From assembly GCA_026388125.1 (NCBI GenBank), contig JAPLKJ010000219.1:1-49071 (forward strand): a DNA stretch of 49,071 bases, written 5' to 3'. This document shows, in pieces, positions 25,616-43,691 of this stretch. Position 1 is the first letter of the stretch, and the number at the start of each line of letters is the position of its first letter. The notes under the pieces were generated by a model that ran no database searches, was not told the origin of the DNA, and saw only the letters and a list, made by a program, of their open reading frames with translations. The stretch comes from Elusimicrobiota bacterium (lineage in GTDB: Bacteria > Elusimicrobiota > Elusimicrobia > Elusimicrobiales > UBA9959). The position numbers and the translations under genes were made by a program.

Positions 25616-25690
25616 TGGTGGGTGATACAGGATTTGAACCTGTGACATCTGTCGTGTGAGGACAGCGCTCTACCGCTGAGCTAATCACCC
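25616..25690 (-). tRNA. tRNA-Val(CAC), CCA encoded
   Basis: Reverse strand GGGTGATTAGCTCAGCGGTAGAGCGCTGTCCTCACACGACAGATGTCACAGGTTCAAATCCTGTATCACCCACCA; 7-bp acceptor stem, anticodon loop CTCACAC. Confidence 0.95.
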
Positions 25691-25747
25691 TTTGAATATA
25701 TATTTTACAATAGTTTTTTGTGTTTTGCAGTTTTAATTTTGAACCCC

Positions 25748-25771
25748 TGGTGTCCAATTTGGTGTCCAATT
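25748..25771. repeat. Tandem perfect 12-bp direct repeat TGGTGTCCAATT x2
   Basis: TGGTGTCCAATT at 25748-25759 and 25760-25771, between tRNA-Val and integrase. Confidence 0.9.
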
Positions 25772-25778
25772 CCCAAAA

Positions 25779-25808
25779 TACAAGTAGAACCAAGTAGAAC
25801 GAAATAGC
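25779..25808 (-). repeat. Inverted copy of the 30-bp integrase-associated repeat
   Basis: Reverse complement GCTATTTCGT TCTACTTGGT TCTACTTGTA; 25/30 identical to the repeat at 26961-26990. Confidence 0.8.
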
Positions 25809-25825
25809 GATAAAAGGCACCGGAG

Positions 25826-26932
25826 CTATGGCTGGCATGATAGTTGACCACTATGCGTTGCCGGGGCCGCCGGCGCGCCCAGAACAGGCATCCCCGATTC
25901 GAACGCGGCCATGGCGGCGTTAATATGCGCCTTCGACAGGTGGGCATAGCGTTGCGTCATCTGCGGCGACGCGTGGCCCAACAGTTTTTGCAGGGCGTAC
26001 AGGTCCGCCGTCCTCATATAGAAGTGGCTGGCAAAAGTATGTCGAATATCATGAAACCGGAAATACGCAATGCCGGACTCCGCCTTCAACCGGTCGAACA
26101 GACGCCTGAACGTTATATGCGCTATTTCGAAAACTTTCCCCTCCGGTTTCGGCCTAGTACCTAACATTACTTCCTTCAGGCGCGGCGTGATAGGCACCTC
26201 GCGCGGCTTGCCGGACTTCGATATAAGAATGTAGATGGTGCCATGCTCAAGGTCGACGTTCTTCCAATCCAGCCTTAATATCTCGCCTTGCCGCATGCCC
26301 GTAAAGAGCGCGCAGACGACAACAGGATATAGCTTGCTGTACTCCGGCCCCTGGCACACGAGTAGTAGCCGGTCCATCTCGGCGGAACTTAGGTAACGGA
26401 GCCGGGAGGCGTTATCGGGCTGCTTCTTAATGCGCTTGGCAGGATTTTCCTTCTGAAAGTCGCCCCACTCAATGGCGCGGTTGTAGATGGCCTTTATCAA
26501 TGCCAGGTACCGGTTCGCGGTCGACGGCGTGGTCGAGACCGCTTTCTTGTTGTACCATTCCTGCCATTCTTTCGTCGTTATTTCGTCGGCCCGCCGATGG
26601 CCGAATTCGGGAATCAGGGTACCGGTTCGGTAGCTCCATGAACTATCCCTGTTGAAGCCGACAAGCCGGTAGTAGTTATCCGCCAGTTCTTTAAAAGTGC
26701 AACGCTTAACGGCGGCGATATATTTATTTTCATAAACCTCGCCCTGCACCTTAACTAGTGACCGCTTAGCCAACTTGCGCATTTCTGCGGTATCAGGCCC
26801 GATCTTCTCACGGTGGCGCTTGCCGGCCTGATCATTAAAGACTATCCATACTTCCGCCAATTTATCCGCCCGTTTTCGTATCCAGATTCCGTTTGCCATA
26901 AGTTCCTTTTCTCCTTGGACAATAGCGGACAT
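25826..26932 (-). CDS. int: Tyrosine recombinase/integrase
   Basis: ALFTGMRQGEILRLDWKNVDLE...FRFHDIRHTFASHFYMRTADLYALQKLLGHASPQMTQRYAHLS (R..HxxR..Y). True start may be MANGIWIRKR. Confidence 0.93.
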   Translation of the reverse strand: MSAIVQGEKELMANGIWIRKRADKLAEVWIVFNDQAGKRHREKIGPDTAEMRKLAKRSLVKVQGEVYENKYIAAVKRCTFKELADNYYRLVGFNRDSSWSYRTGTLIPEFGHRRADEITTKEWQEWYNKKAVSTTPSTANRYLALIKAIYNRAIEWGDFQKENPAKRIKKQPDNASRLRYLSSAEMDRLLLVCQGPEYSKLYPVVVCALFTGMRQGEILRLDWKNVDLEHGTIYILISKSGKPREVPITPRLKEVMLGTRPKPEGKVFEIAHITFRRLFDRLKAESGIAYFRFHDIRHTFASHFYMRTADLYALQKLLGHASPQMTQRYAHLSKAHINAAMAAFESGMPVLGAPAAPATHSGQLSCQP

Positions 26933-26960
26933 TTACGTCGTCCGTCAAGTCCTGTTTCGC

Positions 26961-27094
26961 TCTATTTCGTGCTACTTGGTTCTATTTGGTTTTGAATCAA
27001 ATCTACCCTGTTTTGACTTTGCTGTACTTTGTTGTATTTGGTTACGACCCCGCTTCCATGCAGTTCGACTTTGTTGTATTTTGTTGTGTTTGGT
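26961..27094 (+). repeat. Three degenerate 30-bp repeats at exact 52-bp period, each of three 10-bp units
   Basis: 26961-26990 TCTATTTCGT GCTACTTGGT TCTATTTGGT; 27013-27042 TTGACTTTGC TGTACTTTGT TGTATTTGGT; 27065-27094 TCGACTTTGT TGTATTTTGT TGTGTTTGGT; both spacers 22 nt. Confidence 0.82.
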
Positions 27095-28073
27095 TCAGGA
27101 GCCATTCATCTATCGTGCTTTTCCGGAACCGGTTCAGCCGCCCCAACTTTATAACGGGTATCTTCCCCTCGCTTACCTTCGTGTATATGGTGGCAATAGC
27201 CCAGCCCAGGTACGCGGAAAGCCCCGGCACATCCATCAAGGGGTCATTTTGAACGGGGACCGGCACGGATACTGGGGTGGCCACAGGCGCGGCGGCTGCG
27301 TTAATCGGCCCGGAATCGGGGCATAGCCGCGCTTTCGCCGCGTTTACGTAGTCCGCATTCAGATCGTAGCCCACAAAGCGCCGGCCGTGCTTCTGCGCCG
27401 CCAGGAGCGTGGTGCCAGAGCCGCAGAAGGGGTCAAGAACAACATCGCCGGGCTTACTGCCGTACAGAACGAACCGCTCTGCCACGGCGTCCGGCATCTT
27501 GGCGGGGTGGATCTCTTTCTGGTCCTGGGATTTAGGGTGAATAAAATAGTTGCCCGGGTCTTTGCCAAGTTCGTTATATTTATAGGTCCGGTTATCTTTG
27601 CCCGCCCATTCGCTCGGCTCGCGGATAGCGTCCTTATAAACAATAAAATCTTTTGATTTCGCGAAGTGCCAGATAAACTCAACAGAGTTCTTCAGCACGT
27701 TCCGGGCGGGCAGGGGATTGGCGTTGGGCTTCACCCAGGTATGCGTCTGCACGTGCAGCAGACCAAGCTCTTCTACTGCCATCTTCACGATCAGGTATTC
27801 CGTGGGCGAGGTCAGCCCGTCGATTATCTGCGCCTGAAAGTTCAGGAACAGGTTTCCGCCTGGCTTCAATACGCGCTTACATTCAGCCAGTACGGCTTTC
27901 AGCTTAGTTACATATTCCAGCCCCTGGTAATTCCCAAGATCCTCCGGGTCATCAGAATAATGCCGCATGGTCTCGTAAGGGGGCGAGGTAAGAATAAGGT
28001 CCACCGACAGCGGCTCCAGTTCCGCCATCCGCGCGGACGAGCTGCAGTACACCGCATCAAAAAAGTCTTTCAT
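27042..28073 (-). CDS. Beta-class DNA methyltransferase (SPPY) fused to C-terminal excisionase-type HTH (HTH_17-like)
   Basis: LILTSPPYETMRHY (motif IV) precedes GDVVLDPFCGSGTTLLAAQKHGRRFVGYDLN (motif I); C-terminus MDVPGLSAYLGWAIATIYTKVSEGKIPVIKLGRLNRFRKSTIDEWL. Confidence 0.88.
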   Translation of the reverse strand: MKDFFDAVYCSSSARMAELEPLSVDLILTSPPYETMRHYSDDPEDLGNYQGLEYVTKLKAVLAECKRVLKPGGNLFLNFQAQIIDGLTSPTEYLIVKMAVEELGLLHVQTHTWVKPNANPLPARNVLKNSVEFIWHFAKSKDFIVYKDAIREPSEWAGKDNRTYKYNELGKDPGNYFIHPKSQDQKEIHPAKMPDAVAERFVLYGSKPGDVVLDPFCGSGTTLLAAQKHGRRFVGYDLNADYVNAAKARLCPDSGPINAAAAPVATPVSVPVPVQNDPLMDVPGLSAYLGWAIATIYTKVSEGKIPVIKLGRLNRFRKSTIDEWLLNQTQQNTTKSNCMEAGS

Positions 28074-28086
28074 GGCACACTCCTAA

Positions 28087-28113
28087 AAAATATTAACCTT
28101 ACCTCAATATTTT
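28087..28113. promoter_or_regulatory. 8-bp inverted repeat just upstream of methyltransferase start
   Basis: AAAATATT-11 nt-AATATTTT, 14-40 nt upstream of the start codon at 28073. Confidence 0.4.
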
Positions 28114-28136
28114 AGGCCAGGCCATGAATAAGCGCC

Positions 28137-28181
28137 CGGATACAGTTCCGCGAACCGTATCCGAGTCCCGTCTGAAACGGG
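28137..28181. other. Two adjacent GC hairpins
   Basis: CGGATAC-A-GTTC-CGC-GAAC-C-GTATCCG followed by CCCGT-CTGAA-ACGGG; between the 28194-29480 gene stop and the MTase promoter. Confidence 0.6.
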
Positions 28182-28193
28182 CATTTGGGGTTG

Positions 28194-29480
28194 TCAGCTT
28201 TTGGGAAGAGTTACTGGCGGGGTTTCCGGCAAATTAGAGAGGGTCATATCTCCCGTTCCGGGGAAATATTCATCCAGATAATCTGTCCAAAGCTTGTTCG
28301 TCTGTGCAGTGCTTTTCCCTATATAGAAAAGTGTATTCGCGTAGTCTAACTTTTTACCATCCATTTCCATGAGGCCCATTTGCAGGGCGGCTTCCTGAAG
28401 CGCCTTGGATGTGTTGTGACTTTCAGAAGCACGGTATTCCGCTATCTGTCCAGTGGTGAGCTCCGGATATTTCTTCTGGCACTCCAAGAGGGCTTCGTCT
28501 CTGCTTTTACCGCTGGAGCATATCCCTTGTACATCTTCACGCATATTTAAAAAAACCTGTTGCAGCCTGTAAAGCTCATCAGGATTGCCCGGCTCTAACG
28601 CTGCAGGCGCTTCATACCCCGACACGTTGGCTAACGAGATAGCGCCGAAATCGCTGACAACTCCCTTGATAACCTTCAACTTCTCTTCCTGCAAGTATTT
28701 CCCCAGTGAATTCCCCGGCCGGTTCTTTCCGGCAACCAGGCTTTTAAGCTGCTCGTTGTAATAGCTATCACCTTTCGGCCGTTCTCTTTTATAATCAACG
28801 GAAATCTGGGCCAGTCTTTCTTTTGTGATCTTTGCCGTTACCGGGTTACAGATTTTTTCCGCGATCTGCTGCTTTTTTTCATCCGACATTGTGTCTTTTA
28901 TGCCCAGTTTTTCCGGCTGCTGGTTTATACGATCAAGCAAAGCATGTTTTTGCGCTTCCGATTTGTGGAATAACGGATCTGTTGAATTTATCCCGCATTC
29001 TTCCGGTAATTCCGGGGTAGTTCTTGCCCACTTGATTAGGAACGCTTTTTCTTTGTCAACTCCATGCTTGTTTATTGCAATATTTAAGCGCTCTGACAGC
29101 TCTTTTGGGGTTAAGTCAAAAAGATGGATATATCCGGTAGGAATTTTACTGGGTTTTTCATAGAGCAAGATTTTATGTTTTCCTTTCTCCACACGGTTGA
29201 AATATTCGATGGCAGAATTGGCCGAAATCAGGCTAAAAAAACTTTCAAAGAATTTTTCTTCTGGTTTTACCTCCAGGCAGGCCGCAAAAGAACGAAAAAT
29301 CGCAAGATCAGCCGGGATTAGCCCCATCACCCCGGAAACCCACCATTCAAAGGGCCGGGAATCGCCCGTCCAGAGCTTGTTTTTTAGAACGACAATCCGT
29401 TCATGTATTTCCCTATGCAGCACCGGGAAATTTTTCTGATGTTTTTCGGCCCATCGGCGCTTCTTAACTTCGTCTCTCAT
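28194..29480 (-). CDS. Hypothetical soluble protein, 428 aa
   Basis: Long ORF in low-GC region without competing frame; no recognised motif. Confidence 0.7.
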   Translation of the reverse strand: MRDEVKKRRWAEKHQKNFPVLHREIHERIVVLKNKLWTGDSRPFEWWVSGVMGLIPADLAIFRSFAACLEVKPEEKFFESFFSLISANSAIEYFNRVEKGKHKILLYEKPSKIPTGYIHLFDLTPKELSERLNIAINKHGVDKEKAFLIKWARTTPELPEECGINSTDPLFHKSEAQKHALLDRINQQPEKLGIKDTMSDEKKQQIAEKICNPVTAKITKERLAQISVDYKRERPKGDSYYNEQLKSLVAGKNRPGNSLGKYLQEEKLKVIKGVVSDFGAISLANVSGYEAPAALEPGNPDELYRLQQVFLNMREDVQGICSSGKSRDEALLECQKKYPELTTGQIAEYRASESHNTSKALQEAALQMGLMEMDGKKLDYANTLFYIGKSTAQTNKLWTDYLDEYFPGTGDMTLSNLPETPPVTLPKS

Positions 29481-30035
29481 AATTTTCCTCTAAACTCCGT
29501 GATAAACCCCGGCTTAAAGGATAAATCTTTTACCGGCGGCCATCAATAAGGATTTTAAAAGCCTTACAGTGGAAAATTTGAGATTTTATTACGTATTATC
29601 CGGGGAATTATTCCCGGGGCGACGAAGATAGAATAATATATCTAAAAAAAGTGGCCTGTTTTGCCCTGAACTTGTTATCTATATACCCCGAAATGTCCAT
29701 TTTTATAAACCGCGAAAGTTTTAACCCTTTTCCAGATATTTTCAATGGAAAGAATTCATCCTTACAAGGAAAATTATTACGCACTTGTCTCCAATGAAAA
29801 TAGCGATATTTTACAGCAAATAATTTTGGGGCTATGGAATGGAACCAGGAAACGAAAATAATGCCGGCTCCGGGCAGAGATTTCCCGATTTTCCCGGGGG
29901 AAAGTTCTTCACTACACGGCCCGGCACAGTCGCCACTCTGCCGGCAAGGCCGCCGTTGGCGGCAAGGCTCGCGCAAACAACTGCGGCCTTGCGGGAGAAA
30001 ATCCTTAAAAGATGTGAAAAAATCTCTAAACTCAA

Positions 30036-30962
30036 TTAGAAAAACCAAGTGCGATTTCTGAAAATAGCGCCAAAAACAATACTCGCTGGGATTAATATGA
30101 ATACGATGGATATTTTTAACCATCGATAATTGGTTCTGTTGTCTCTCATTGCCTTAATGCCGCATGAAAATAATGCAACAGAGATTGCCCAAGCGAAAAA
30201 TATAAATCCAGAATAGGCAAGTAGCCCGATCATGCCAGCACCATTCTGCTGTTGAAGTGAATCCGAAGCTAAGAACGTGTCTTTCCAAAAAGTGTTTTTT
30301 GCAACTATATTCATAGCGGCATAGCTATTGGAAATAGTAAGCCGTGATAAAAATTGTGCAACTGGATTGCATGCAATAATTAATAGCACCCATATTTTCT
30401 TCGAGATTCCTGAAAAATAAAAGAGTTCTTGGTCTTTAGAATTAAAATAAGTGGTCTTTTTTGCGAAGTTAAAGCTGAAGTAAGACGCGCTGAATGTGAG
30501 GAGTATTTGTAAAATGATCAACGTCCACTCACCAGAATTTATTCCTAAGACGAAAGGGTTTGCCTCTGCAAATGTCTGTCCCTTTATTATGCGAGCAGCC
30601 ACAAGTAATAGAGATTCAATGACACGGTAATATATCAACAAAAATCCAAATAAGACCCCCCAAAAAACACGTAGCTCTCTTAGATAATAACCGAGTATTC
30701 CTACCGAACATGTAATAACTAATGAGTCGAACAGTAAGGATATAAGGTTGAAAACCCAGAATTGAGTTAACGTTAAATAAATTGGGACACCATTGGTGGT
30801 TCGATATATCAAAGACTCTTGGAATTCAGGTATCGCCCTGCTAAAAAGCCCTAAATAGTTTAGCGCCAGAAAACTGGAGAATAGTAAAATAAATATTGTA
30901 TTTTTGCTTCTAGTTCTGGTTTTCATATAATTCCAGAAACTTTTAGTTGTAGTTCTGTTCAC
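30036..30962 (-). CDS. Polytopic membrane protein, unknown
   Basis: ~7 hydrophobic segments; AT-rich; overlaps upstream membrane gene by 20 nt. Confidence 0.7.
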   Translation of the reverse strand: MNRTTTKSFWNYMKTRTRSKNTIFILLFSSFLALNYLGLFSRAIPEFQESLIYRTTNGVPIYLTLTQFWVFNLISLLFDSLVITCSVGILGYYLRELRVFWGVLFGFLLIYYRVIESLLLVAARIIKGQTFAEANPFVLGINSGEWTLIILQILLTFSASYFSFNFAKKTTYFNSKDQELFYFSGISKKIWVLLIIACNPVAQFLSRLTISNSYAAMNIVAKNTFWKDTFLASDSLQQQNGAGMIGLLAYSGFIFFAWAISVALFSCGIKAMRDNRTNYRWLKISIVFILIPASIVFGAIFRNRTWFF

Positions 30963-31422
30963 GATTAATTAAAAAGAGTCCTAAACCTCGAATCCCTAAA
31001 GTTGCAATAAGTAGGAGTATGAGATTCCCGGATGTGCCCCACATTCCATGAAAAAGTGTCGCGAGAATGGCGAGCGGTACGACTCCAACTCCTAAGAAGC
31101 AAAGACCCAAAAAAACCGCGAGTATTCCCCAGATGTTGTACGTAATTAGTAAACCCCAGGCCCACAATGTTAATCCAAAAATATATGAGCAGAGATAAAA
31201 CCCAAGTCCAGAGAAACTTCTGGTTTTTCTGAACATAGAAAGAGGTAGAAGTATTAGTATGCATACTTCAGTAGTGAGGGTTGCTAAAACAAGTAAAATT
31301 GGATAAAGCTTAGCAGAAAGCCATGCAGCCCCCGAAAGAAATAATAAGCCTAATATCACAGATGCCGCTAGGACAAATATCCCCGCCAAAAATATTCCTA
31401 TTGATTTTAGTGAGTTGTTCAT
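30943..31422 (-). CDS. Polytopic membrane protein, unknown
   Basis: MNNSLKSIGIFLAGIFVLAASVILGLLFLSGAAW...; start taken at ATG 31422 rather than the track's 31611 because the extra N-terminus is not hydrophobic-family-like. Confidence 0.6.
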   Translation of the reverse strand: MNNSLKSIGIFLAGIFVLAASVILGLLFLSGAAWLSAKLYPILLVLATLTTEVCILILLPLSMFRKTRSFSGLGFYLCSYIFGLTLWAWGLLITYNIWGILAVFLGLCFLGVGVVPLAILATLFHGMWGTSGNLILLLIATLGIRGLGLFLINREQNYN

Positions 31423-31664
31423 GCGCAACCAAACCTTACATTTTCTAACATTTATTCGCCCAGTTAGCAAGATTAATTGACAAGAAAAGGCAACTGCGGC
31501 CATGCGCCCCGCCACTATTATAACTTGCAACCGTGGTGCCAGCCCACCAAGCGGGTTGGTTTGTAGGGTACCAAGCCGTATCCCCGTGCTCCACTGTACA
31601 GGCCGCGCCAAACCGTGGCCTTGCGGGAAATGCTGTATAATAATCAGGTTAGGAAACTCAAATA

Positions 31665-32780
31665 ATGATACAGCATAAGGCCGAATACCTTAAATTTCTT
31701 CAGGACGATCCGGCCGTAGACGACCCGTCAATAAAATCTTATGTTTCCTACCTAACAACGGTTTCCCGTTTTCTTGATAAAGACATTACTCCCGCCCTTC
31801 TTCATTCGGAAACTAATAGACAAGATATTGTTCGTCGACTTCAACTTGCAGAGAAGAACGTGCACACAATAAATAATTTAAGTTCTGCTATGCGCAAGTA
31901 TGTGAAGATGGTTCAGGTTGAAAAGTTTTACCGCCCTTTAGCAGAACCTAGCTATTGGCGTATATCTTTCCGTATTGGAAATCAGGGTGAGCGCCTTTGG
32001 TTGGATTGCCTTAAGCGGGGCGTAGCTGTCATCACTTATCCGTCTCTTCACAATATCGACCTTTCCAGATTTGATAAATATGAGCCGAAAGTTAAGTGGG
32101 CAAAACTGGCTGTGTCCCAACGTTTTAGTTTAGCAGCTATTGCGTATGAAATGAAACCAGGTGACATAATTTATGTAAAAGAAGGGCCGTTTATTGTCGC
32201 CAAAGGTTTAATAACTCGTGGATATCAATTTAATCCTAGCGTTCTACACCGGCCTGATGTGACTTGGGGACATCATGTAAAGGTAGATTGGAAATATACT
32301 TACCCCGAAGGCAGAATCAAATATGTCGGGCCCACGCAAAACACGGTCCATAAACTCACTCAGGAACAAGTGACTGGCCTAGAAGCGCAGAGTAAGAGGG
32401 TTTTTTTAGATCAAGAACATCAGGAAGATGTATTGGAAGGCCGCTTAATCGAATGCCATTCACATGCTCGTGTCAGAAATCCGAAACTCGCCCAGTTCAA
32501 AAAAACTCAATCTGATTACCGATGCGAGATTTGTGGTTTTAATTTCGAAGAGACTTATGGGAATATCGGGCGGGGATATATTCTAGTTCACCACCTAAAA
32601 CCTATTGGCAGTCGCCGGAGAGCAACAAAAACGCGATTAGAAGATCTTGTTGTTATTTGCCAGAATTGCCATGCAATGCTGCACCAACAAAGGCCCCCAT
32701 TATCTCCGGACGAACTGCATTCTCTTGTGGTTCAATTTGAAAAAGACACCAGATTAATCCCCAGTGTCGCAAAAGTCTAA
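31665..32780 (+). CDS. EVE/PUA-like domain + HNH endonuclease (putative modification-dependent restriction enzyme)
   Basis: YWRISFRIGNQGERLWLDCLKRGVAVITY...MKPGDIIYVKEGPFIVAKGLITRGYQFN (EVE-like) and CEICGFNFEETYG...ILVHHLKPI...LEDLVVICQNCHAMLH (HNH). Confidence 0.8.
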   Translation: MIQHKAEYLKFLQDDPAVDDPSIKSYVSYLTTVSRFLDKDITPALLHSETNRQDIVRRLQLAEKNVHTINNLSSAMRKYVKMVQVEKFYRPLAEPSYWRISFRIGNQGERLWLDCLKRGVAVITYPSLHNIDLSRFDKYEPKVKWAKLAVSQRFSLAAIAYEMKPGDIIYVKEGPFIVAKGLITRGYQFNPSVLHRPDVTWGHHVKVDWKYTYPEGRIKYVGPTQNTVHKLTQEQVTGLEAQSKRVFLDQEHQEDVLEGRLIECHSHARVRNPKLAQFKKTQSDYRCEICGFNFEETYGNIGRGYILVHHLKPIGSRRRATKTRLEDLVVICQNCHAMLHQQRPPLSPDELHSLVVQFEKDTRLIPSVAKV

Positions 32781-32827
32781 ATCCTTCTTTTCCCCTCGCG
32801 TCGGGAAATTCCCCCTTCCCCTCTTCG

Positions 32828-32858
32828 AGTGTCGCAAAAGTAGCACTTTTGCGACACT
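32828..32858. repeat. 14-bp-stem perfect palindrome, with a third copy of the arm at 32763-32776
   Basis: AGTGTCGCAAAAGT-AGC-ACTTTTGCGACACT; AGTGTCGCAAAAGT also forms the 3' end of the HNH gene. Confidence 0.88.
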
Positions 32859-33125
32859 GGATGGATAGGCCTGGGAATTAAATTGATGCCCCCTATTAGT
32901 TGTCGAGCTTTCTCCAAATATATCGTTGGTCTCCGTCCAAGATTCCCCTACGAATTCGCGAATGTAGGGCGGACTTAAAGTGGGACCAGATTTCACACGT
33001 TCTCACGGACCCGTTCAAATTCAAATGTTATAGTTCCGATCTACTGAGGATTGCTGGGAATAATGCGATTATGATTTTATATCATTCCATAATAGACGGT
33101 CACCTAAAAAATGCACAAAACACTA

Positions 33126-33155
33126 TTGACAGCATGTTTGGTATGGTGCTATAAT
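33126..33155 (+). promoter_or_regulatory. Near-consensus sigma70-type promoter with extended -10
   Basis: TTGACA (33126-33131), 18-nt spacer ending TGC, TATAAT (33150-33155), upstream of the gene at 33200. Confidence 0.75.
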
Positions 33156-33199
33156 AATGCTGTTATCGGTATAGATTCATATTAGTATGGAGATTTATT

Positions 33200-33574
33200 A
33201 TGTCAGAACAGGAACTTATCACTTTAACCGACGTCGCCGAGCGGCTGCAACTTCACCCGGAAACAGTACGCAGGCTCTACCGGCATGGCAAAATCCCGGG
33301 AATTAAATTCGGGCATCGAACGTTACGTTTTGATTATGCCAAGGTGGTGGAGGCGCTCCACAAACCCGGAATAGCAATGGCGAACATACAAGGCCCCGTC
33401 CAAGTTAAGAAATCACCAGTTTCCGATCCTAAAGCAAACATAACAGTTCAGAAGAAAGTGGAAGCTCCAGCCCCGGTTAAAACTGTTAAAGCGCCCATAG
33501 ACAAACCGACAGCGGAAACAACCATAAAGCCTAGAATGATCAGTCCAATAAACATTTTACGCCGGAAAGAATAA
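33200..33574 (+). CDS. Excisionase-type HTH protein with Lys/Pro/Ala-rich tail
   Basis: LITLTDVAERLQLHPETVRRLYRHGKIPGIKFGHRTLRFDYAKVVEAL (HTH_17-like). Confidence 0.85.
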   Translation: MSEQELITLTDVAERLQLHPETVRRLYRHGKIPGIKFGHRTLRFDYAKVVEALHKPGIAMANIQGPVQVKKSPVSDPKANITVQKKVEAPAPVKTVKAPIDKPTAETTIKPRMISPINILRRKE

Positions 33575-33773
33575 CGGAAAGGAACAAGCCGGAGGTTTTC
33601 ATACGTTATTGGGCCTGTGGGAATGCCGCTGACTGGTTGCATGCATAAGTGCAATTCTGTTGTGGGCGATTCTAGCAAAGGAGCTGGGACTCTGACCGCT
33701 TGTGGGGGCAGGCACTGTTTGGGACAGACCAAAAACAGGATGTTATTATTGCGGCATTTTGTAGAATTATTTC

Positions 33774-35654
33774 ATGGGGATAATAATTCCAGATTCCGCG
33801 CTGGCTGGCGGACCGTATAAGATCGAACCCGGAGAGAAGCTGCTGCTTAAAAAGTTCAAAGAGTCTCTCCCTGAAAACTGCCTGGTGTGGCACAATGTGG
33901 ATCTGCCGCGCCATTACCAACCCGACATCATCGCCTATATTCCCCGCCTCGGGATAATCATTATTGAAGTAAAAGACTGGCTTCCGTCGACCGTAACAAA
34001 AATAGGCAAGAACAAATGGGAACTGAGCATTGACGGCCGCCGCAAAGAAGTGACTTCCCCCCTTGAGCAGGTGAGAGGCTATTTCGTGCAGCTGAAAAAC
34101 CTGCTGGAAACGCATACCACCCTGCTTTCCCAAAGCGGAGCACGAAAAGGCTCCTTCAAACTGCCCATAAGCTATTTTGTCGCCTTCAGCAAGATCAGCC
34201 GCGCGGACCTCCCGGCGGAAGCCTCGGCATTTCTGTCCGAAGATAAATTCCTGTTCAAAGAAGACATAACCGCCATAGGCAATTCCCTGAAAGGCGCGGA
34301 CCTGGCGAAATATTTCATGCGCATTTTTGCGCAAAGCTTCTGGAAAACGGAACCGCTTTCACCCAAAGAGCTTGAAACGCTGCGCGGCGCCTTATATCCC
34401 GAAATAACGCTTACAAGAAAATCGAAGACCGGCGATAAACAGATAGTTCTGGACATAACCCAAGAGCAGTTAGCTAAAAAACTGGATTCCGGGCACCATG
34501 TTGTGCGCGGTATAGCCGGCAGCGGCAAATCCCTGGTATTATGCGCCAAGGCGAAACTGCTTGCGGAAACCAAACCGGAGTGGAAAACCCTGCTGACCTG
34601 CTTTAACACCAGTTTAAAAGCGCAGCTTGTGTTTTACATTAAAAACATGAACGATATGTTCATAACGGAGCCGGCTAGGCCCAACTGGGAAATAGCCAGT
34701 TTCTACAACCTGCTTTTTAGACTCGCCCGCGAAACAGGCTATAACGGCATCCCGGATGATTTTTTCTCGCACGGAGCGGATACGCAAAGCGACGAAGAAC
34801 AAAGTCTTAAAGCCGGCGAGCATTTACAGCAGATAGCCAAGCTACCGGGCGCTCCGAAGTTCGACGCGATATTGATAGACGAGAGCCAGGATTTTCATCA
34901 CTCCTGGCTGAAAGGCCTCATGTCGCTTTTAAATCCTGAAACTAATTTTATAATTCTGGCGGAAGACCCCAACCAAAAGATCTATAAACGCAGCTTCACC
35001 TATAAAGATGCCGGGTTAAATATCGCCGGGCACGTACGAAAACTGCCGGTTACATATCGCAGTACCAGGGAAATAGTGCTCCCCGCGTCTTTATTCGTGC
35101 AGCAGTCGAACTGCGACGAGTTTTTTAAGCAGTATGTGGGCGAAGATAATTTTGCGACGCTTTTCAGTGAGCCAGCCGGGACTCCGCCGCGGCTGGCCAT
35201 TGTTAAGGACGATAGAATTTTAAGTCATTTATTGGAAAGCATCTACCGCGATACCAAAAACGGGATGGCATATTCCGACATAGCCGTTATCTGTCCCTAT
35301 AATGAGCAAACCAGAAAAGTATCCGATTTCCTGCGGCGGGCTAAAATTCCGGCGTATTGGCTTGTAAAAGACGCCAAGGCCAAAAAGGAATACGACCTTA
35401 CCCAAGACAAAGTTGTAATAACCACGATCCATTCCGCGAAAGGCCTGGAGTTCGAGAAAGTGTACTTCCTGGGTTTTGAGGCGTTCCCTTTAGATTCCCT
35501 GGAACTAAACGACCGGGAAAACGCCTCGATGATCTACGTGGCCATGACCCGGGCAAAGAAGCAGCTTGAGATAGTAAGCACCCAGCGCACCAAAACTTTC
35601 AGCAAACTAAGTGATGTAATAGCGAAATACACGACTGCGGAGAACAAGGCCTAA
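33774..35654 (+). CDS. NERD-domain + UvrD-like superfamily 1 helicase
   Basis: N-terminal PDIIAYIPRLGIIIIEVKDW (NERD), Walker A GIAGSGKSLVL, ILIDESQDF, VVITTIHSAKGLEFEKVYFLG, IYVAMTRAKKQL. Confidence 0.9.
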   Translation: MGIIIPDSALAGGPYKIEPGEKLLLKKFKESLPENCLVWHNVDLPRHYQPDIIAYIPRLGIIIIEVKDWLPSTVTKIGKNKWELSIDGRRKEVTSPLEQVRGYFVQLKNLLETHTTLLSQSGARKGSFKLPISYFVAFSKISRADLPAEASAFLSEDKFLFKEDITAIGNSLKGADLAKYFMRIFAQSFWKTEPLSPKELETLRGALYPEITLTRKSKTGDKQIVLDITQEQLAKKLDSGHHVVRGIAGSGKSLVLCAKAKLLAETKPEWKTLLTCFNTSLKAQLVFYIKNMNDMFITEPARPNWEIASFYNLLFRLARETGYNGIPDDFFSHGADTQSDEEQSLKAGEHLQQIAKLPGAPKFDAILIDESQDFHHSWLKGLMSLLNPETNFIILAEDPNQKIYKRSFTYKDAGLNIAGHVRKLPVTYRSTREIVLPASLFVQQSNCDEFFKQYVGEDNFATLFSEPAGTPPRLAIVKDDRILSHLLESIYRDTKNGMAYSDIAVICPYNEQTRKVSDFLRRAKIPAYWLVKDAKAKKEYDLTQDKVVITTIHSAKGLEFEKVYFLGFEAFPLDSLELNDRENASMIYVAMTRAKKQLEIVSTQRTKTFSKLSDVIAKYTTAENKA

Positions 35655-35708
35655 CCGACGATAGAAGCCTGCTGTTTATGCAGCTGAGCGCAAATGTCAA
35701 AAAAATAT

Positions 35709-36644
35709 TTAGACCAATGGGCCGAGAAATTTATCTCCGTTAAAGTGGATCATGTGCCCTGGAACTTCCGAAACCCAGACTTCTGTTTCCCAGGCTATAT
35801 CATTTGCGTACCGTTTAAATTCCCTGAAATCCGGGAACGCGCTCACATAAATTCTGGTGGCGGGACATTTCGCAAGAATTTCTTCCAGCTCCATGTGCCG
35901 CTTTGGCGAAACCGGGCCATGCGCCGTAACCGCTTCGATCAAGAACAAATAATTCCTCGCCCTGTCGTAGAGGACAACATCGGGAAGCTTGTCGTGCTTG
36001 GTTATCGGAATGCCGAGAGCTTCTAACTCCTCTTTTTCCATGTGCAGAAGCTTATGGGCGGTGTCGCCCATATAAAGCAAACTCGCATCCGGGCAGAATC
36101 TTGCTTTAAACTCCTCGAAGATTTTAATCTGCAGTTTGTTGTGCTTTCCGGGTGATAAAGTTATGGTTTTATCTCCGCTTATGGGAAGGGCTAAGGTGTT
36201 GCTGGTTTTTACTTTTTGATACTTATCGACAAGCCGCCCCTGGGCCGCGATAAAACCACGCAGAGCTTCCTCCCATTGGGGAGTGCCGTACGTTGAAATA
36301 GTCGCTAATGCCTGCGGTGAGATGTTATAGACGTTATTCGGGCTGTTAGTCGGGCGCGTGGGATCATCGGAATTCCTTTCCGCAATCCCGGCCTGTTCAA
36401 ATTGGTGCAGAGTCTGGCGGCGTATCGTTTCGCGGGTGTTCTCGGCGTAGGTCTTGTTGTATTTGGCTTTTACGAATTTCAGAACGTCATGGACACGGAT
36501 TAAACCAGTCTTTGCGTCCTTCCATTCGCTCCGGGGCGAAAGATCGAGCAGCGCCAGCAACGTCAGGGCCGAGCGGTCATTTTGCTGCGCACGCGGGAGC
36601 CCCAAGTCTTTTAGGATCAGTGTTGCCTGTTTTATCTTGTTCAT
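35709..36644 (-). CDS. Type II restriction endonuclease, BsuBI/PstI family
   Basis: SLLYMGDTAHKLLHMEKEELEALGIPITKHDKLPDVVLYDRARNYLFLIEAVTAHGPVSPKRHMELEEIL. Confidence 0.85.
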   Translation of the reverse strand: MNKIKQATLILKDLGLPRAQQNDRSALTLLALLDLSPRSEWKDAKTGLIRVHDVLKFVKAKYNKTYAENTRETIRRQTLHQFEQAGIAERNSDDPTRPTNSPNNVYNISPQALATISTYGTPQWEEALRGFIAAQGRLVDKYQKVKTSNTLALPISGDKTITLSPGKHNKLQIKIFEEFKARFCPDASLLYMGDTAHKLLHMEKEELEALGIPITKHDKLPDVVLYDRARNYLFLIEAVTAHGPVSPKRHMELEEILAKCPATRIYVSAFPDFREFKRYANDIAWETEVWVSEVPGHMIHFNGDKFLGPLV

Positions 36645-38307
36645 TGTCGTCCTTTAGGTTCAGCAAATTGACGGGGATATCCAGGATTTTCGCCACCAGA
36701 AGATCAAGCTTTTTCCCCGGCAGGCATTTCCGCATGCGCACCTGCCGGCCTATCTCTTTGAGTCTCGCCAGCGGTGGCAAAGGCAATGCCCGCAAGTCTC
36801 CCGCATTAACCTGGGTGTTCCCGTTAATACTCCTAAAGAAGCAATCGACAATGGAAGTGTTAAGGAATGCCGCTATACCAAAAGCCTCCTCGGCGGGGAT
36901 ATCGCTGTTTTTCTTGTGGATATAGTTCAGGTGGTTCTCTATGCCTATATATTTGCCCTTAATATCGTTTCCAAGCAGGACACCCGCATATAAGCGGCGC
37001 TGCTGTTCTTTTGACGTGAACCTTTTTAAGAGAATGTAGTTTTTTGCGGGCAGCAGGATATTCTTTGTCCGGCCGCTGGTGGTAATATATTTTTCTTTGC
37101 CCGCCCTGTCTAAAGGCCAGCGGACATCAAGCCCCTGTATGTTATGCATCCATAGGAGCGGAGTAAGTTTTTCTTTGGCATCTGGCGCGTTGAAAAGGTA
37201 TTCTTTTGCCCGGAACGCCACTACGGGACCCGTAGAAACCGACATCCCCAGGCTCTGAAAGGTTAAATTCCATTTTTGGAGGATTTTGCCGATAGCAAGC
37301 TCTTCTTTGTTCGCCGGTATCTTAATGAAAGCATCCTCATGGTGGAAAATATCCGCGTAGGGGAATTTCCCCTCCGTAAGGTCTGAGAAAGTAGAGTCAT
37401 TACTCTGGGAAACAGTGACTTCCTGGTTGGGCGTGAAGGGCGTAATGTTCCGCACCTTGATGATTATGCTTTCCTGAAGGATGTCTTCGTTATAAAAAAC
37501 ATTCTTCCTTGAATCAAAATTATGGATATTTTCGATGGAGTAGCGGTCTATTAACCACTTCCGGAACTTCATATGGTAAAGCCCCGAGCAGAAACTTCTG
37601 GGGGTGATAAACACAAGCTGGCCCTTTGGTTTCAGCAAGAGCAGGGATAATATCATGAAAAAGACGTAGATATTGGGTTGGCCGGAGGTAAAATCTTTCA
37701 AAAGTATCGTTTCGGGCGAGTCGGCGTTCAGTTTAAAGTACGGAGGATTTGAAACGATATAATCATACCGGTCTTTCGCGGGATCAGCCTCAAGAAACAT
37801 TTGGGACCGGGCCACGTTTAGATTGGCCAGGATAAAATCGGCATTGATGATCTTGTAGGTTAAATCCCAGCCTCGGTCTTTGAATTTAAGATGGCAGGCG
37901 GCTATGGTCTTTTTCAGGAAAGGAAGCACTTCCCCGTCCTTCTCGTATAAATCAATATGGAGGATTACTTTCTTGTAGTTGTTAGCCAGGACGGCGTTGC
38001 AAAAGCCCGCGGTCAGTATTCCCGCTCCCGCTCCAGGGTCCAGCAATGAGATTTTAATGGAAGGTGTTTTAGGAAGCGAGAAAAGGCCGGACATGAAATT
38101 GGAGATTTCCGGCGGCGTAAAAAATTGCCCCTTCTCTTTGCGTCCGTCGGGCGATTTAAGGATGTATGCTTCGGCGTGTGAATTAGCCAGGGAAGTTAAA
38201 GTAATGTCATTGATGAATCTTTCGCGCATTTCATTTTCCTGATACTCTATTTTATCACATACAGAAAAGGTTGGGCCGTTTATTAACGACAAAAATATTT
38301 CTCCCAT
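36577..38307 (-). CDS. N6-adenine DNA methyltransferase, BsuBI/Eco57I-like
   Basis: GQFFTPPEISNFMSGLF, LLDPGAGAGILTAGF (motif I), YIVSNPPYFKLN (motif IV); 68-nt overlap with REase gene. Confidence 0.88.
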   Translation of the reverse strand: MGEIFLSLINGPTFSVCDKIEYQENEMRERFINDITLTSLANSHAEAYILKSPDGRKEKGQFFTPPEISNFMSGLFSLPKTPSIKISLLDPGAGAGILTAGFCNAVLANNYKKVILHIDLYEKDGEVLPFLKKTIAACHLKFKDRGWDLTYKIINADFILANLNVARSQMFLEADPAKDRYDYIVSNPPYFKLNADSPETILLKDFTSGQPNIYVFFMILSLLLLKPKGQLVFITPRSFCSGLYHMKFRKWLIDRYSIENIHNFDSRKNVFYNEDILQESIIIKVRNITPFTPNQEVTVSQSNDSTFSDLTEGKFPYADIFHHEDAFIKIPANKEELAIGKILQKWNLTFQSLGMSVSTGPVVAFRAKEYLFNAPDAKEKLTPLLWMHNIQGLDVRWPLDRAGKEKYITTSGRTKNILLPAKNYILLKRFTSKEQQRRLYAGVLLGNDIKGKYIGIENHLNYIHKKNSDIPAEEAFGIAAFLNTSIVDCFFRSINGNTQVNAGDLRALPLPPLARLKEIGRQVRMRKCLPGKKLDLLVAKILDIPVNLLNLKDDNEQDKTGNTDPKRLGAPACAAK

Positions 38308-38529
38308 AATTCAACCTCCATAACCGGCAAAATATATAAAAAGTATAGCAGACGAACCCGACATAGGCGTGACGGGTTGTAAAATGAAGGCGGCGTCGGG
38401 ATCCTTTCGGGCGGCGGCTTGCTGTTTTTCCAACCCGGTCCACACGTCAGCCCATGCGATTGGAGTTACCCACCCATTTGCTAAACATTGGCTACATACT
38501 TTATGTTATCATTGGGTAGTGGAGCCTTT

Positions 38530-39381
38530 ATGAGCAAGTGTAGCAACTGCAATGCCCCGCTATCACCAAGCTTAAGGCACTGCCCTGCATGTAGGGCAGA
38601 TGCTGGTGCACCTAATGTCAGAGAATGTGGAAGCACGGAAGAGCGGCTTGCATTAGAAGAACGCTTTGAAGTTTCAAAGAAAAGTGCATTTTCACGTGGG
38701 TGCGGAACAGAATTTTCAGATTTCATTTTACTGACAGAAAAAAGTTCTTGCGTGATTGTAAACATGCCAGCAGCTCAAGCACGTAATTTAGTGACAGATG
38801 TTAAGAATATATATGTAAATTATGAAAAATTAGTAGGAAGCGGATTACGTCTACCAGCATTAATTCCGAATGACAAAAAACGTAGTGGAATGGCTGGATT
38901 CTTCTTTGGCACTTATGATGACCAAATAATTTATGGCTTTCTCGGTTTTCCAAGCTCAAAGCTTCCATCTTATGGTGGAATTGCTTGCCAGTTAAAATCA
39001 ATTTCAATCAGAAATCGTGTAAGTTTTCTTGAGGAGAACTCCTATAGTTTCTTCAATCAGCATAAAGATGCCATCCTAAAGAGTGACTTCCCAAAAGGCT
39101 ATAGGGCAGTTTGGGGGAACCGTCATAAATTAGTAATGGCTAAACTAGGGGATAGAATTCAGAAAGGCTCTACAGATACCGACCATGAGATTCTTATTTC
39201 TGTTTCGGGGGGTATGAATAGAGAACAAGACGAATTTATTGAAGCGCACATTTTTGAAACTTTCAATGTTCACGCAATTGAAGCGATGAAAGATGCTAAC
39301 ACATCAAAGCATGATAAGGGTGCAAAAATAGACGCAAAAATAGCTCTTGAGCAATTTGCAAAGATTCAGACTACACCATGA
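38530..39381 (+). CDS. Zinc-ribbon protein of unknown function (gene 1 of a two-gene unit)
   Basis: MSKCSNCNAPLSPSLRHCPACRAD (two CxxC knuckles); ATG at 38530; 4-nt overlap with next gene. Confidence 0.75.
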   Translation: MSKCSNCNAPLSPSLRHCPACRADAGAPNVRECGSTEERLALEERFEVSKKSAFSRGCGTEFSDFILLTEKSSCVIVNMPAAQARNLVTDVKNIYVNYEKLVGSGLRLPALIPNDKKRSGMAGFFFGTYDDQIIYGFLGFPSSKLPSYGGIACQLKSISIRNRVSFLEENSYSFFNQHKDAILKSDFPKGYRAVWGNRHKLVMAKLGDRIQKGSTDTDHEILISVSGGMNREQDEFIEAHIFETFNVHAIEAMKDANTSKHDKGAKIDAKIALEQFAKIQTTP

Positions 39382-41282
39382 CGGTTCAAAAAGCTTTCTG
39401 GTCTACTACTGCGGGAGTTCTCGTTGGGGAGAGAACCGGTGAGGCTCCTCCTAAGGTGCATTCTATTGGAATACAGGATTTCTCCGACCAAGAAGCAGGG
39501 TATTACCTTTCTTCCATAACTGATTGGGAGGAAGTGGAATTCAACGACATCACATCTTTGTTAGGCACCCTTACAACTCGGTACTGGGTAGACAGAGCAC
39601 ATGCTTTAGCTGTAGCTTTATTAAGTGGTCTCTCCGAAGTGTTGGAGAAAGAAGTCCTAGAAGAACTCGAGCAACTCATTCAGACACGAATTAAAGCCAA
39701 GAGTCTGCTATCACTCCTTTTAGTCGCCCCTCTTGCTTCGCCTGCAAAATCGAAGTCCCTTGCAGTGACTTCACTAAAAACAAATCTCCCTGCTATAGCT
39801 GCAGTTTGGGACAAACTTAGTGAATTACAACCCTTAATTAATCGCTTTTCATCATTATGGCTAACTATTCCCGAAGAGAGTTTTTTACAATATGCACGGC
39901 ACGATTTATGGGTTAGGGTGGCCACGGAAGAAGTACTTCCGGACTTGCTTGAATCCCCCAATAGTAATAGTTTCCGTTCCCAATGGAATACTTTATTATT
40001 TAAGAGCAAGCAATCGCCTGACCAGATAAAATCTTTAAATACAGTGGGGATAACTTTAACTGGTAAATTATTCCCGCATGGCGCGAGTGTCACTCCAATG
40101 TCGATTGCGGACGAATTACCAGAAGAACACATACATAAAAAAAAGTTTACTCACTATATTGCCGCAGAGGAAAAGGACAGTGCTCTTAAACAAGTTGCTG
40201 CGATTGCAAAAACACTAGCTGAAGGTAAAGATGATATTGCCCATAAGTATCTGCGGGAACTTGTGAAGCATCAGGTAGCAGGTGGGGATACAGAATTCGT
40301 TCTTAAATCGCTATGTAATATCGCAAAGAAATGTGCAGACACGTTTAGAATTGATTTCGAGCATGACTGTTTGTTAAAAGCATTGTCTCTTTCTCCATCA
40401 GATTCCTGGACTTTAATTCAATGGGGAGATCATTTGAAAAGAACTGGGGATTACGATCTCGCACTAGAGGCGATGGAGAAAGCATGGCAGATGAGCGGCA
40501 ACATAATTGCCCAAACAATCATAGCTGATATATGGGCTATGCAGGGAAAGCGCGAGAAGGCTCTTTCAATATACAAAAAGATTGAGAATTGTGAAAATAA
40601 TGAGACTGTCAGAACCGCTATCGGTGACATTTTACGAAGAGATGGTCATCTTGAAAATGCTGAGAAAGAATATGATTATGTAATATCCAAATGGGAGTCT
40701 CATCGCGCTTATGCGGGCAAAGCTGAAATAGCTAAAAATAAGTTGCTATTCCAAAAATCTTTATCTATCTATGAGAAACTTCTAGAAAACCCAGATACCG
40801 ACGAGCATTCTCGCGCTATTTACAGATCGGCTCAATGTCGCTTATTTAAACTGATGGGCCGGTTTACTGAAGCCTATAAGGGGTGTGAGTTACTATTGCT
40901 TAAGTTACAACGATATGATGAAGCAAAATGCTTATTAACTGAGAGAATAGATTCTGTAATGGAATCGAGCGACAACCCCGCTCTTCTACGATTAGGGGCG
41001 ACATTGGCATTTTTAAGTGCACGAGAGGATTCAGAGGCAGAAAGAATAATTAAAGAGTTCCCTAAAAGTTCAAATCAGTATGTAGAATACCTTGCTTCTA
41101 TTATGAGGTTGCATCTTGCCGTTTTAAAATCGGATGAAGTATCTATACAGTGGTTGACTAAGGAATTGTTGCAGTACCCTGAAATGTCCACCAAAACGGA
41201 TGTAGCTTTAGCCGATCTTAAGAAACACGATTTTAAATCTATAATAGAGCTCGAGATCGAACTCTGCCTTATGGCTGCATAA
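39378..41282 (+). CDS. 634-aa TPR-containing protein (gene 2 of the unit)
   Basis: TPR-like helices SWTLIQWGDHLKRTGDYDLALEAMEKAWQMSGNIIAQTIIADIWAMQGKREKALSIYKKIENCENNETVRTAIGDILRRDGHLENAEKEYDYVISKW. Confidence 0.78.
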   Translation: MTVQKAFWSTTAGVLVGERTGEAPPKVHSIGIQDFSDQEAGYYLSSITDWEEVEFNDITSLLGTLTTRYWVDRAHALAVALLSGLSEVLEKEVLEELEQLIQTRIKAKSLLSLLLVAPLASPAKSKSLAVTSLKTNLPAIAAVWDKLSELQPLINRFSSLWLTIPEESFLQYARHDLWVRVATEEVLPDLLESPNSNSFRSQWNTLLFKSKQSPDQIKSLNTVGITLTGKLFPHGASVTPMSIADELPEEHIHKKKFTHYIAAEEKDSALKQVAAIAKTLAEGKDDIAHKYLRELVKHQVAGGDTEFVLKSLCNIAKKCADTFRIDFEHDCLLKALSLSPSDSWTLIQWGDHLKRTGDYDLALEAMEKAWQMSGNIIAQTIIADIWAMQGKREKALSIYKKIENCENNETVRTAIGDILRRDGHLENAEKEYDYVISKWESHRAYAGKAEIAKNKLLFQKSLSIYEKLLENPDTDEHSRAIYRSAQCRLFKLMGRFTEAYKGCELLLLKLQRYDEAKCLLTERIDSVMESSDNPALLRLGATLAFLSAREDSEAERIIKEFPKSSNQYVEYLASIMRLHLAVLKSDEVSIQWLTKELLQYPEMSTKTDVALADLKKHDFKSIIELEIELCLMAA

Positions 41283-41293
41283 CGGAAATAATG

Positions 41294-41321
41294 AAAAAAA
41301 AGGGACAGCGAGGCTGTCCTT
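41294..41321 (-). terminator. Rho-independent terminator for the 41364-46726 cassette
   Basis: On minus strand GGACAGC-CTC-GCTGTCC-C-TTTTTTTT. Confidence 0.82.
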
Positions 41322-41363
41322 AGGAAAGAGGCCCGGTGCATGCACGCGCCCTCTATTGCTATC

Positions 41364-42113
41364 TCAACACTGAGAGTCAAACTCCAAAAGCATTGACGCC
41401 TCTGGTAGTGCGATTAAATCTTGCACTGACATTGCGAGCCTCTCGGAACAGGGAACTTTGATAGCTACAGATTTGCATAAAATGCCGTTATCCACCAAAT
41501 AGATCCTAGTGGCAATCCGCAACACATCAACAATTTGATGAGCAGTGGCGATAATGGATAAACCATCACCTTCGACTCGTCTATGCAATTCTGACATTAT
41601 TTTAGCTTTTGTGATTGCATCAATCCCGGTAAAAGATTCATCTAAAAGAAGCAAATCAGGGTTAAATGATAGCGCCTTACACAATTCCACACGTTGCCTC
41701 ATGCCGAGAGAGAGTTGTCGGGGAAGAAGATCCTTTATCTTATAAAGGCCACATATTAAACATAGCTTTTCAAATTCATTTACATTTGCAGCGTGGCGTC
41801 TAAGAGCCGCTTCTGTAACAACATTATCCGTTACTGATAACCATGGGAGTAGTGTGCTATCATGCATTATATACCCAAGACATCTCACTGAGGAGCGAAT
41901 GGAATCAGAAAGGTTGCTTCGCAACACCCCACTCATAAGATTGAGGAATGTCGTCTTTCCGCAACCACTTCGGCCATGGAGAAAAATAATTTCACCTGGA
42001 AAAATTCGAAAGTCTCGTAAAATAAATTCAGAAGCATCCGCTATGCCATCATAGGAAAACTGTGATTTACTAATTTCAATCAAAGGGGACTTAGAATAAC
42101 GATCTGATATCAT
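41364..42113 (-). CDS. ABC transporter ATPase, SsuB/TauB-like
   Basis: Walker A LHGRSGCGKTTFLN, signature LSLGMRQRVELCKALSFNPDLLLLDESFTGID. Confidence 0.9.
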   Translation of the reverse strand: MISDRYSKSPLIEISKSQFSYDGIADASEFILRDFRIFPGEIIFLHGRSGCGKTTFLNLMSGVLRSNLSDSIRSSVRCLGYIMHDSTLLPWLSVTDNVVTEAALRRHAANVNEFEKLCLICGLYKIKDLLPRQLSLGMRQRVELCKALSFNPDLLLLDESFTGIDAITKAKIMSELHRRVEGDGLSIIATAHQIVDVLRIATRIYLVDNGILCKSVAIKVPCSERLAMSVQDLIALPEASMLLEFDSQC

Positions 42114-43588
42114 TATTTATTTGTAACCGCTAAAAGATTTGAAGATGTTTTACTGGGATCGTGTCTGAAGAAAAAAAGGACATCATCACAGGGCAGCGAA
42201 TCTATACCATGTACTTTGCGGACAAGATTAGCGAAGCGGTTTAGGATTTGAATATCATTGCATGGGTCATCATATAAATAATGGAGAAAGTCGGTAAGGT
42301 CATGCAAATATGCAATTGGGTATGTTTGTAGCACTTCACAATCCGGTTGTAGCAAATTTTGCATAGATTTACTACAGTCAACTGACACTAATTGGGCTTG
42401 GTCGATTACCATCTTCAGGAAGGTATCAATCCATATATGACTACGATTATCCGCAGTCAGTGAACGTGATTTAATGAATGAAATCGCAACAAATATCGAC
42501 TTTGGGCCATTACCTCTAAACACCACCAAAGCATTTGGCTTAGTATTCTGGATAACACGAATTATCTCGTGGACGGTTTTTTCCTCATATAGTACGTGAG
42601 AAAAATAGAGCAAATCAGCCTTTTTTGCTATGGTTAGCAAATCGGTCTCTTTGCCATTAATAAACCTCCATGCATTAGTAGTGTTCCGCGCATTGAATTC
42701 TTTCTCCCATCTTGAATCTTTTTCATAGCAGTAAACTTCTTTAGGGCTGATTTTCATCCAGGAAAGGAGTTGCGCTAATCGTTCTCCATCGCCACACCCA
42801 AAGTCCAAAACACAATCCATCGATCCTGTGATCGACGGAAGATTTGGTTGACTCAATTGTGCGATGTGTGTTTTGAAGCGTTTATAAATACTAGCGTAAT
42901 TCTCATCTTTCACTAAACTGTGAAATAGGCGTACAACTAAATAAAATAAAACACTCATTCCGACAGCGAGGTCTTTGGTATTTATATGAGATTCGTTGAA
43001 ATCTGAATTAAACCCCGGGTATCTTAGGAATATAATAAATATGATTATGGCAACAAATTCTATAAGCACCCATAACGTTGTTTCTGCTTTGTTCTTTTCA
43101 GGATTTTTTCCCTCACCCCAATCTCTAATAAGCCATAGAAGAAATAAGGCAATAAAGGTTCCATAAGACGCAGTTCGGAACATTTCAGAAGACCTTGGAA
43201 AGGCTAGGGATAAAGTGTATAACCCCTGGGCACCTAAAAGTAAAGTTGGAATAACAAAATGTTGCGGGAATAACCCTTCCATAGGTTGGGAGAACACTAG
43301 GATATTGAATACAATATATAGGTACAAGGCATGAGTTAGAGCCTTAAAGAGTACCCATACCTGCATGGTCAAGGGCGTGAATCCATTCGCCATATTTAAA
43401 GGAAATTCTGCTTCATAAATCAAAACAGTCAGAAGCGACATTCCAATAACTATGTATGTGAATAGCTTTAAATAGTATGCCGACCTCGTAGAGAAAGGTT
43501 TATGCTTAGAAGTGTCTTCAAGAACTGAATCTTGAATGGCAATGAACAAATCTCGAATTGTGGTACTGTTTAATGTAAAGTTAGCCAT
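42113..43588 (-). CDS. Membrane protein with C-terminal class I SAM methyltransferase-like domain
   Basis: Multiple TM segments over first ~240 aa, then CVLDFGCGDGERLAQLLSWMKISPKEVYCYEKD. Confidence 0.72.
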   Translation of the reverse strand: MANFTLNSTTIRDLFIAIQDSVLEDTSKHKPFSTRSAYYLKLFTYIVIGMSLLTVLIYEAEFPLNMANGFTPLTMQVWVLFKALTHALYLYIVFNILVFSQPMEGLFPQHFVIPTLLLGAQGLYTLSLAFPRSSEMFRTASYGTFIALFLLWLIRDWGEGKNPEKNKAETTLWVLIEFVAIIIFIIFLRYPGFNSDFNESHINTKDLAVGMSVLFYLVVRLFHSLVKDENYASIYKRFKTHIAQLSQPNLPSITGSMDCVLDFGCGDGERLAQLLSWMKISPKEVYCYEKDSRWEKEFNARNTTNAWRFINGKETDLLTIAKKADLLYFSHVLYEEKTVHEIIRVIQNTKPNALVVFRGNGPKSIFVAISFIKSRSLTADNRSHIWIDTFLKMVIDQAQLVSVDCSKSMQNLLQPDCEVLQTYPIAYLHDLTDFLHYLYDDPCNDIQILNRFANLVRKVHGIDSLPCDDVLFFFRHDPSKTSSNLLAVTNK

Positions 43589-43691
43589 ATTTAACTTCTT
43601 TTTTAATTAAATAAAATTAATTCAATGAGAAGTGTTTTCAGTCAATACAATTCATGAATTGGCGATGACATATTGATTTTACTGGCAATTA

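Follow-up and report, generated by a model that had tools for sequence, protein, structure and literature searches.

The window, by which we mean the whole 49,071-nucleotide stretch of Elusimicrobiota DNA that was analysed, contains a tRNA-Val(cac) gene, a tyrosine integrase (Int) gene and, directly upstream of int, a gene that joins a DNA methyltransferase to a helix-turn-helix (HTH) domain. Four 30-bp repeat blocks and one pair of shorter boxes accompany these genes. The features are listed below, where G000 is the genome of the window, C147 and C34 are further contigs of it, G010 is a congener, and G021 and G016 are genomes with related islands.

25616..25690, minus strand: tRNA-Val(cac), the integration target, reconstituted at this end; empty site in G010
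25654..25713, minus strand: att common core, 60 bp; 97% copy at G000:C147:5597-5656 (attR)
25714..49071: island interior to the contig end; GC ~0.38-0.53, against ~0.62 in the left flank
25748..25771, minus strand: companion box pair AATTGGACACCAAATTGGACACCA, a 12-bp direct repeat separating the inverted block from the tRNA; second pair at C147 5459-5480
25779..25808, plus strand: inverted block of the attL arm, units TACAAGTAGA ACCAAGTAGA ACGAAATAGC; counterparts at the corresponding position in G021, G016 and G000:C34
25826..26932, minus strand: tyrosine integrase (Int) gene; stop 172 bp from the overlap
26919..26948, minus strand: predicted int promoter, TTGACG-18-TATTGT; identical hexamers in G021
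26961..26990, minus strand: block 1, units ACCAAATAGA ACCAAGTAGC ACGAAATAGA; gap-free alignment to the G021 block
27013..27042, minus strand: block 2, units ACCAAATACA ACAAAGTACA GCAAAGTCAA; degenerate in G021
27065..27094, minus strand: block 3, units ACCAAACACA ACAAAATACA ACAAAGTCGA; absent in G021
27042..28073, minus strand: DNA methyltransferase with a C-terminal excisionase-like HTH, a candidate recombination directionality factor

An island inserted in tRNA-Val(cac)

The 60-bp core runs from the anticodon loop through the 5' half of the tRNA and a further 23 bp upstream of it. A whole-genome search found its second copy on C147, flanked by a NUDIX gene. In G010 a VTT gene, tRNA-Val and the NUDIX gene are contiguous and form an empty attB. 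Because the core copy lies on C147 and the VTT-tRNA-Val-NUDIX site is uninterrupted in G010, the window and C147 carry the attL and the attR, respectively, of a single insertion in tRNA-Val(cac), the two ends being on separate contigs and joined through the G010 empty site rather than by contiguous assembly. The overlap is CTCACAC in the anticodon loop (GTGTGAG on the plus strand at 25654-25660). The 5' half of the tRNA comes from the island, the displaced fragment lies at the other end, the integrase lies inside and a relative retains the empty site, as in tRNA-gene integrative islands of the 5'-fragment class, here with the ends on two contigs. The earlier note on this DNA had described the repeats as an array bracketing the integrase gene; that picture is incomplete, for the arrangement is properly framed by the att site at tRNA-Val, which has its second half on a different contig.

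Since the drop in GC reaches the contig end, and the region from 38.3 to 48.9 kb has at most a short dispersed repeat matched in G010 or G021, the island comprises at least 23 kb in the window plus 5.6 kb on C147. A second island end inside the window was considered and rejected: no tRNA-core copy, decamer array or box pair was found to the right of 27.1 kb, and the core copy lies on C147 instead.

The island carries restriction-modification and other candidate defence genes, as does its family, together with ABC transporter genes. The candidate defence genes in the window (31665-38307) encode an HNH protein, a NERD-UvrD helicase (PADLOC C3a187) and a BsuBI/PstI-type restriction enzyme with its methyltransferase; on C147 (locus L011, 1272-3110) there are also genes for a ParA-like ATPase and a RelA/SpoT-domain protein. 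Two further repeats were observed. A perfect 26-bp inverted repeat with a 3-nt loop lies at the junction of attR and the chromosome (L011 5656-5710) and is absent from the G010 empty site, and a repeat of ~45 bp at 38335-38385 of the window is scattered, at 82-89% identity, over many places in G010 and G021.

Phased blocks of 10-bp units

It had been noted earlier that three 30-bp repeats start at 26961, 27013 and 27065, 52 and 52 bp apart, that each consists of three 10-bp units, and that a fourth copy, matching the first at 25/30 positions, is inverted at 25779-25808; coordinates, make-up and identity all proved exact. On the minus strand, which is that of the int gene, the unit consensus is ACCAAATAGA. 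The ending of roughly TTTGGT that had been attributed to every unit holds for some of them, and others vary (TTCGT, TTTGC and the like). Identities between the direct blocks range from 21 to 26/30, with blocks 2 and 3 the closest pair (26/30), while the nearest match of block 1 is the inverted copy. Autocorrelation of the array gave peaks at 10 and 52 bp. As 52 bp corresponds to 5 turns at 10.4 bp per turn, successive blocks would share one face of the DNA.

The best 30-mer identity within 25701-27130 was 26/30 in both direct and inverted orientation, and the maximum in 30 dinucleotide shuffles was 22 (direct) and 23 (inverted). When the 49-kb window was scanned with a 10-bp weight matrix, triple-unit matches were confined to the four blocks, and the first unit of block 2 was weak (7.1 bits, against 11-15 in the other units); the matrix was built from these same blocks, so that unit scores are not independent inside the window and are independent elsewhere. 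In a control scan of 757 kb from other integrase loci, at a cut-off of >=22 bits, the sole match was the block of the related island in G016. A decamer match on contig C14 of genome G018 was discarded, being part of the tail of a terminator-like hairpin at a place with no recognisable island end.

These data bear on whether the blocks are chance or coding-derived low-complexity repeats without function. The repeats are T-rich, and block 3 falls within the coding 3' end of the methyltransferase gene, whose stop codon is reached by the last base of block 2. Nevertheless, the identities exceed those of the shuffles, the control DNA matched only in a related island, and the blocks are kept beside the tRNA in independent islands and missing at unoccupied sites; we regard such an origin as scarcely credible. 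A CRISPR array was ruled out, the repeats being only 21-26/30 alike and composed of 10-bp units, with no cas gene among the neighbouring ORFs that were searched. Plasmid iterons were set aside, as the repeats track the integrase and the tRNA junction.

Att arms and related islands

Blocks are also present on the attR arm. On C147 two of them, with starts at 5507 and 5559, keep the 52-bp spacing and lie 9-90 bp from the overlap, so that the phasing that had been claimed for the window recurs on the second arm; the third unit of block B and the second unit of block A are poor. The order on C147, counted from the overlap, is two blocks and then the TGGTGTCC box pair. In the window it is the box pair (94 bp), the inverted block (125-154 bp), int, and blocks 1-3 (1307-1440 bp). 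There are thus six blocks in all, on the element side at both island ends and with 52-bp phasing on both arms. By comparison, 0/12 unoccupied tRNA-Val loci of relatives had triple-unit blocks or TTGGACACC box pairs.

The array upstream of int begins ~13 bp from the -35 hexamer, 1.3 kb from the core, and is adjacent to the promoter with no overlap. The Int start is probably an RBS-proximal ATG further in, near 26899. The position of these blocks, close to a conserved promoter and far from the core, is what one would expect if they were operators of an unrelated regulator whose likeness to the att-arm blocks is secondary. Their sequences nevertheless match those of the att-arm blocks, as in the pairing of block 1 with the inverted arm block, and the attR arm has the same 52-bp spacing. 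We consider separate operators very improbable.

Related islands retain part of this arrangement. The G021 island has an Int of 78% identity with one in-frame stop, and the same tRNA target. On its tRNA side a box pair and a block lie next to the tRNA; upstream of int, one good block directly precedes the same promoter, a degenerate second is in register and there is no third. Its displaced tRNA half is on contig C124, followed by an arm colinear with the C147 attR arm. The G016 Int (54% identity) lies on the contig of tRNA-Thr(cgt), ~4 kb from that tRNA, with a block ~130 bp from the tRNA and a variant box pair, TAGCCACC. The displaced half of this tRNA-Thr is on another contig, where the attR arm is weakly recognisable, and no blocks were found upstream of the G016 int. 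A further island end at tRNA-Thr, on C34 of the window's own genome, has a block and a box pair. Blocks therefore occur with Ints of 78% and 54% identity and beside a 69% Int fragment. The earlier note had proposed looking for the same phasing beside orthologous integrases; the triple array at the promoter is not conserved there. By comparison of G021, G016 and C34, the tRNA-side blocks are the conserved part, and the promoter-side cluster is a local and lineage-specific expansion.

With Int homologues of 36-47% identity the units were not found, and a de novo search for period-10 repeats at these homologues gave nothing convincing, the few better-scoring triples mismatching the motif. The arm motif is consequently lineage-specific. 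With it, ends of related islands could be identified in fragmented genomes.

The box pairs are more widely distributed. Direct-repeat pairs of the form GGACAC-N5/6-GGACAC occur in the interval between int and the tRNA across a broader clade of Elusimicrobiota integrases whose tRNA targets differ; besides the pairs at 25748-25771 of the window and at 5459-5480 of C147 (L011), they were seen at loci L021, L023, L024, L025, L028, L105 and L113. Several of the integrases concerned share 36-47% identity with the Int of the window, and some of the pairs lie beside stand-alone HTH genes. The box pairs form a second att feature that is conserved, and since they occur in the wider clade, in places beside stand-alone HTH genes, the HTH protein is a candidate for their binder. 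The TTGGACACC boxes may be related to an arm consensus of P2; a literature search found no paper with that consensus.

A separate observation concerns a 250-bp att-like repeat that holds boxes, blocks and a tRNA-anticodon-like palindrome. It is present in four copies, one of them partial: two at locus L160 (3550-3799 and 5282-5532; G010 C72), one at L013 (1855-2098; G000 C99) and one at G000 C178 (1756-1840). The copies adjoin cargo genes (DUF4143 ATPase, YhcG-like nuclease, AbiEi, DUF3800), and no integrase relative was found nearby. They are possibly cis-mobilisable elements. A large cassette array was rejected for the repeats of G010 C72 and G000 C99, there being only four copies among 32 genomes.

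Candidate binders and known systems

The AF2 model of Int (pLDDT 88.9) begins with a predicted beta-beta-beta-alpha fold at residues 16-72, followed by core-binding and catalytic domains. Among its best structural matches are full-length lambda Int (TM 0.61) and Tn1549 Int; the best sequence matches are the P2 and HP1 integrases. Int is accordingly predicted, from the model, to have an arm-binding N-terminal domain of the lambda type. Because the blocks lie on both att arms, are absent at unoccupied sites and are conserved with Int homologues, and because the model includes such a domain, candidate Int binding is well supported. The repeats are very probably arm-type sites for the Int of a mobile defence-gene island in a tRNA gene, as location and sequence comparison indicate. 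We are fairly confident in the reading as a whole, namely that the 10-bp units bind the N-terminal domain of the island's own Int, on the att arms and at the int promoter.

In the mechanism that we propose, recombination of the island would take place in the anticodon loop of tRNA-Val(cac). Once the island is circular, the core would be flanked on one side by the C147 arm, whose two blocks at 52-bp spacing are followed by boxes, and on the other by the window arm, with boxes first and then the block at 25779-25808. The catalytic domains of Int would grip the core while its N-terminal domains contact the arms, in the manner of lambda Int. At the three blocks upstream of int, Int would bind cooperatively and most likely regulate its own gene; alternatively, these blocks may form a remote arm. 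The island ends, the empty site, the positions of the sites and their conservation are observed; Int binding, its cooperativity and this autoregulation are inferred. Several points count against the reading: the promoter cluster is unconserved in G016 and partial in G021, Int homologues of 36-47% identity are without the units, some units of the attR arm are poor and that arm is weakly recognisable in G016, C147 and the window are linked through the empty site, and the KplE1 survey discussed below points away from autoregulation by attL.

The other protein that had been proposed for the blocks is the methyltransferase-fused HTH, which as an excisionase-like factor would act by bending the arms, promoting excision and controlling int. 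The protein has the methyltransferase motifs TSPPY and FCGSGT, and its C-terminal domain scores above the curated cut-off of the excisionase family TIGR01764 (30.3 bits against 28.8) and also matches HTH_17. The gene is kept beside int in G021 (75%) and G016 (53%), and at E<=1e-60 it was found in only 3/149 genomes of the order, those with the closest intact or near-intact Int homologues. It has been reported that excisionase-like wHTH proteins can form cooperative head-to-tail arrays (PMC11963761). However, the TTGGACACC boxes are at least equal candidates for its target, and 10-bp direct repeats occurring in runs on both arms are typical of Int arm sites. Location and comparison thus favour the Int half of the earlier proposal, and nothing ties the HTH to the blocks specifically; we consider the HTH an unlikely binder of the units. 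A combined scheme, in which the fused protein and the 52-bp-phased arms form one switch, with promoter-bound Int acting as a remote third arm or silencer, the enzyme methylating or bending the arm DNA and the methylation state gating excision, is a long shot. A methyltransferase-linked directionality factor would be unusual, and a limited literature search recognised no report of an excisionase-methyltransferase fusion.

Sites of this kind are known from several systems. Lambda Int, a bivalent integrase, binds short arm sites that flank the core on either side (P1, P2 and P'1-P'3) through a separate N-terminal domain and bridges them to the core (PMC4880445), and its domain order is that of the Int model here. 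In contrast to the five lambda sites, there are six blocks here (~16 units, including weak ones) of unrelated sequence, nine of the units belong to the array at the int promoter, 1.3 kb away from the core, and the target is a tRNA gene. Comparable arm sites of 10-11 bp occur in ICEMlSymR7A (PMC11963761). For the mycobacteriophages CrimD and Pixie, the available account of attP gives computed arm sites of ~11 bp to either side of the core, direct and inverted, with a set of three in Pixie, and in that account no 52-bp-phased triplets or separate int-promoter cluster are described (PMC3203893). Arm-type sites are therefore of a known kind, and what is unusual here is the number of copies, the 52-bp phasing and the promoter-side cluster, along with the rarer 5'-half tRNA orientation and the fusion of an excisionase-like HTH to a DNA methyltransferase.

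KplE1 provides a precedent for integrase self-regulation: its intS promoter overlaps attL, with integrase sites at the promoter (PMC2951348); the candidate sites here are adjacent to the int promoter. The accompanying survey predicted that integrases upstream of and co-oriented with a tRNA are not autoregulated by attL (PMC2951348). In the present island, unlike KplE1, it is the 3' end of int that faces the tRNA, and the promoter has blocks of its own and lies 1.3 kb away from the core. The promoter-side cluster probably serves autoregulation of int, as a separate array that would take this role where the 3' end of int faces the tRNA. It offers a testable case of integrase self-regulation in an orientation for which the survey did not predict it.

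A limited literature search found no study of such islands in Elusimicrobiota, and the loci described here provide a complete att-site anatomy for a tRNA-island family of this phylum: attL, attR, attB, candidate arm sites and a candidate directionality factor. Islands with a displaced 5' tRNA fragment have been described before (Zhao and Williams 2002, as summarised in PMC6563490) and make up 159 of the 3919 islands in Islander, or ~4% (PMC4383910). The element analysed here belongs with them in supplying the tRNA 5' half. It differs in that the rarer orientation looks like a trait of its clade: the tRNA 5' end faces int in 10/11 loci with a tRNA close downstream (clade at >=36% identity), a count that sets aside two proteobacterial loci.
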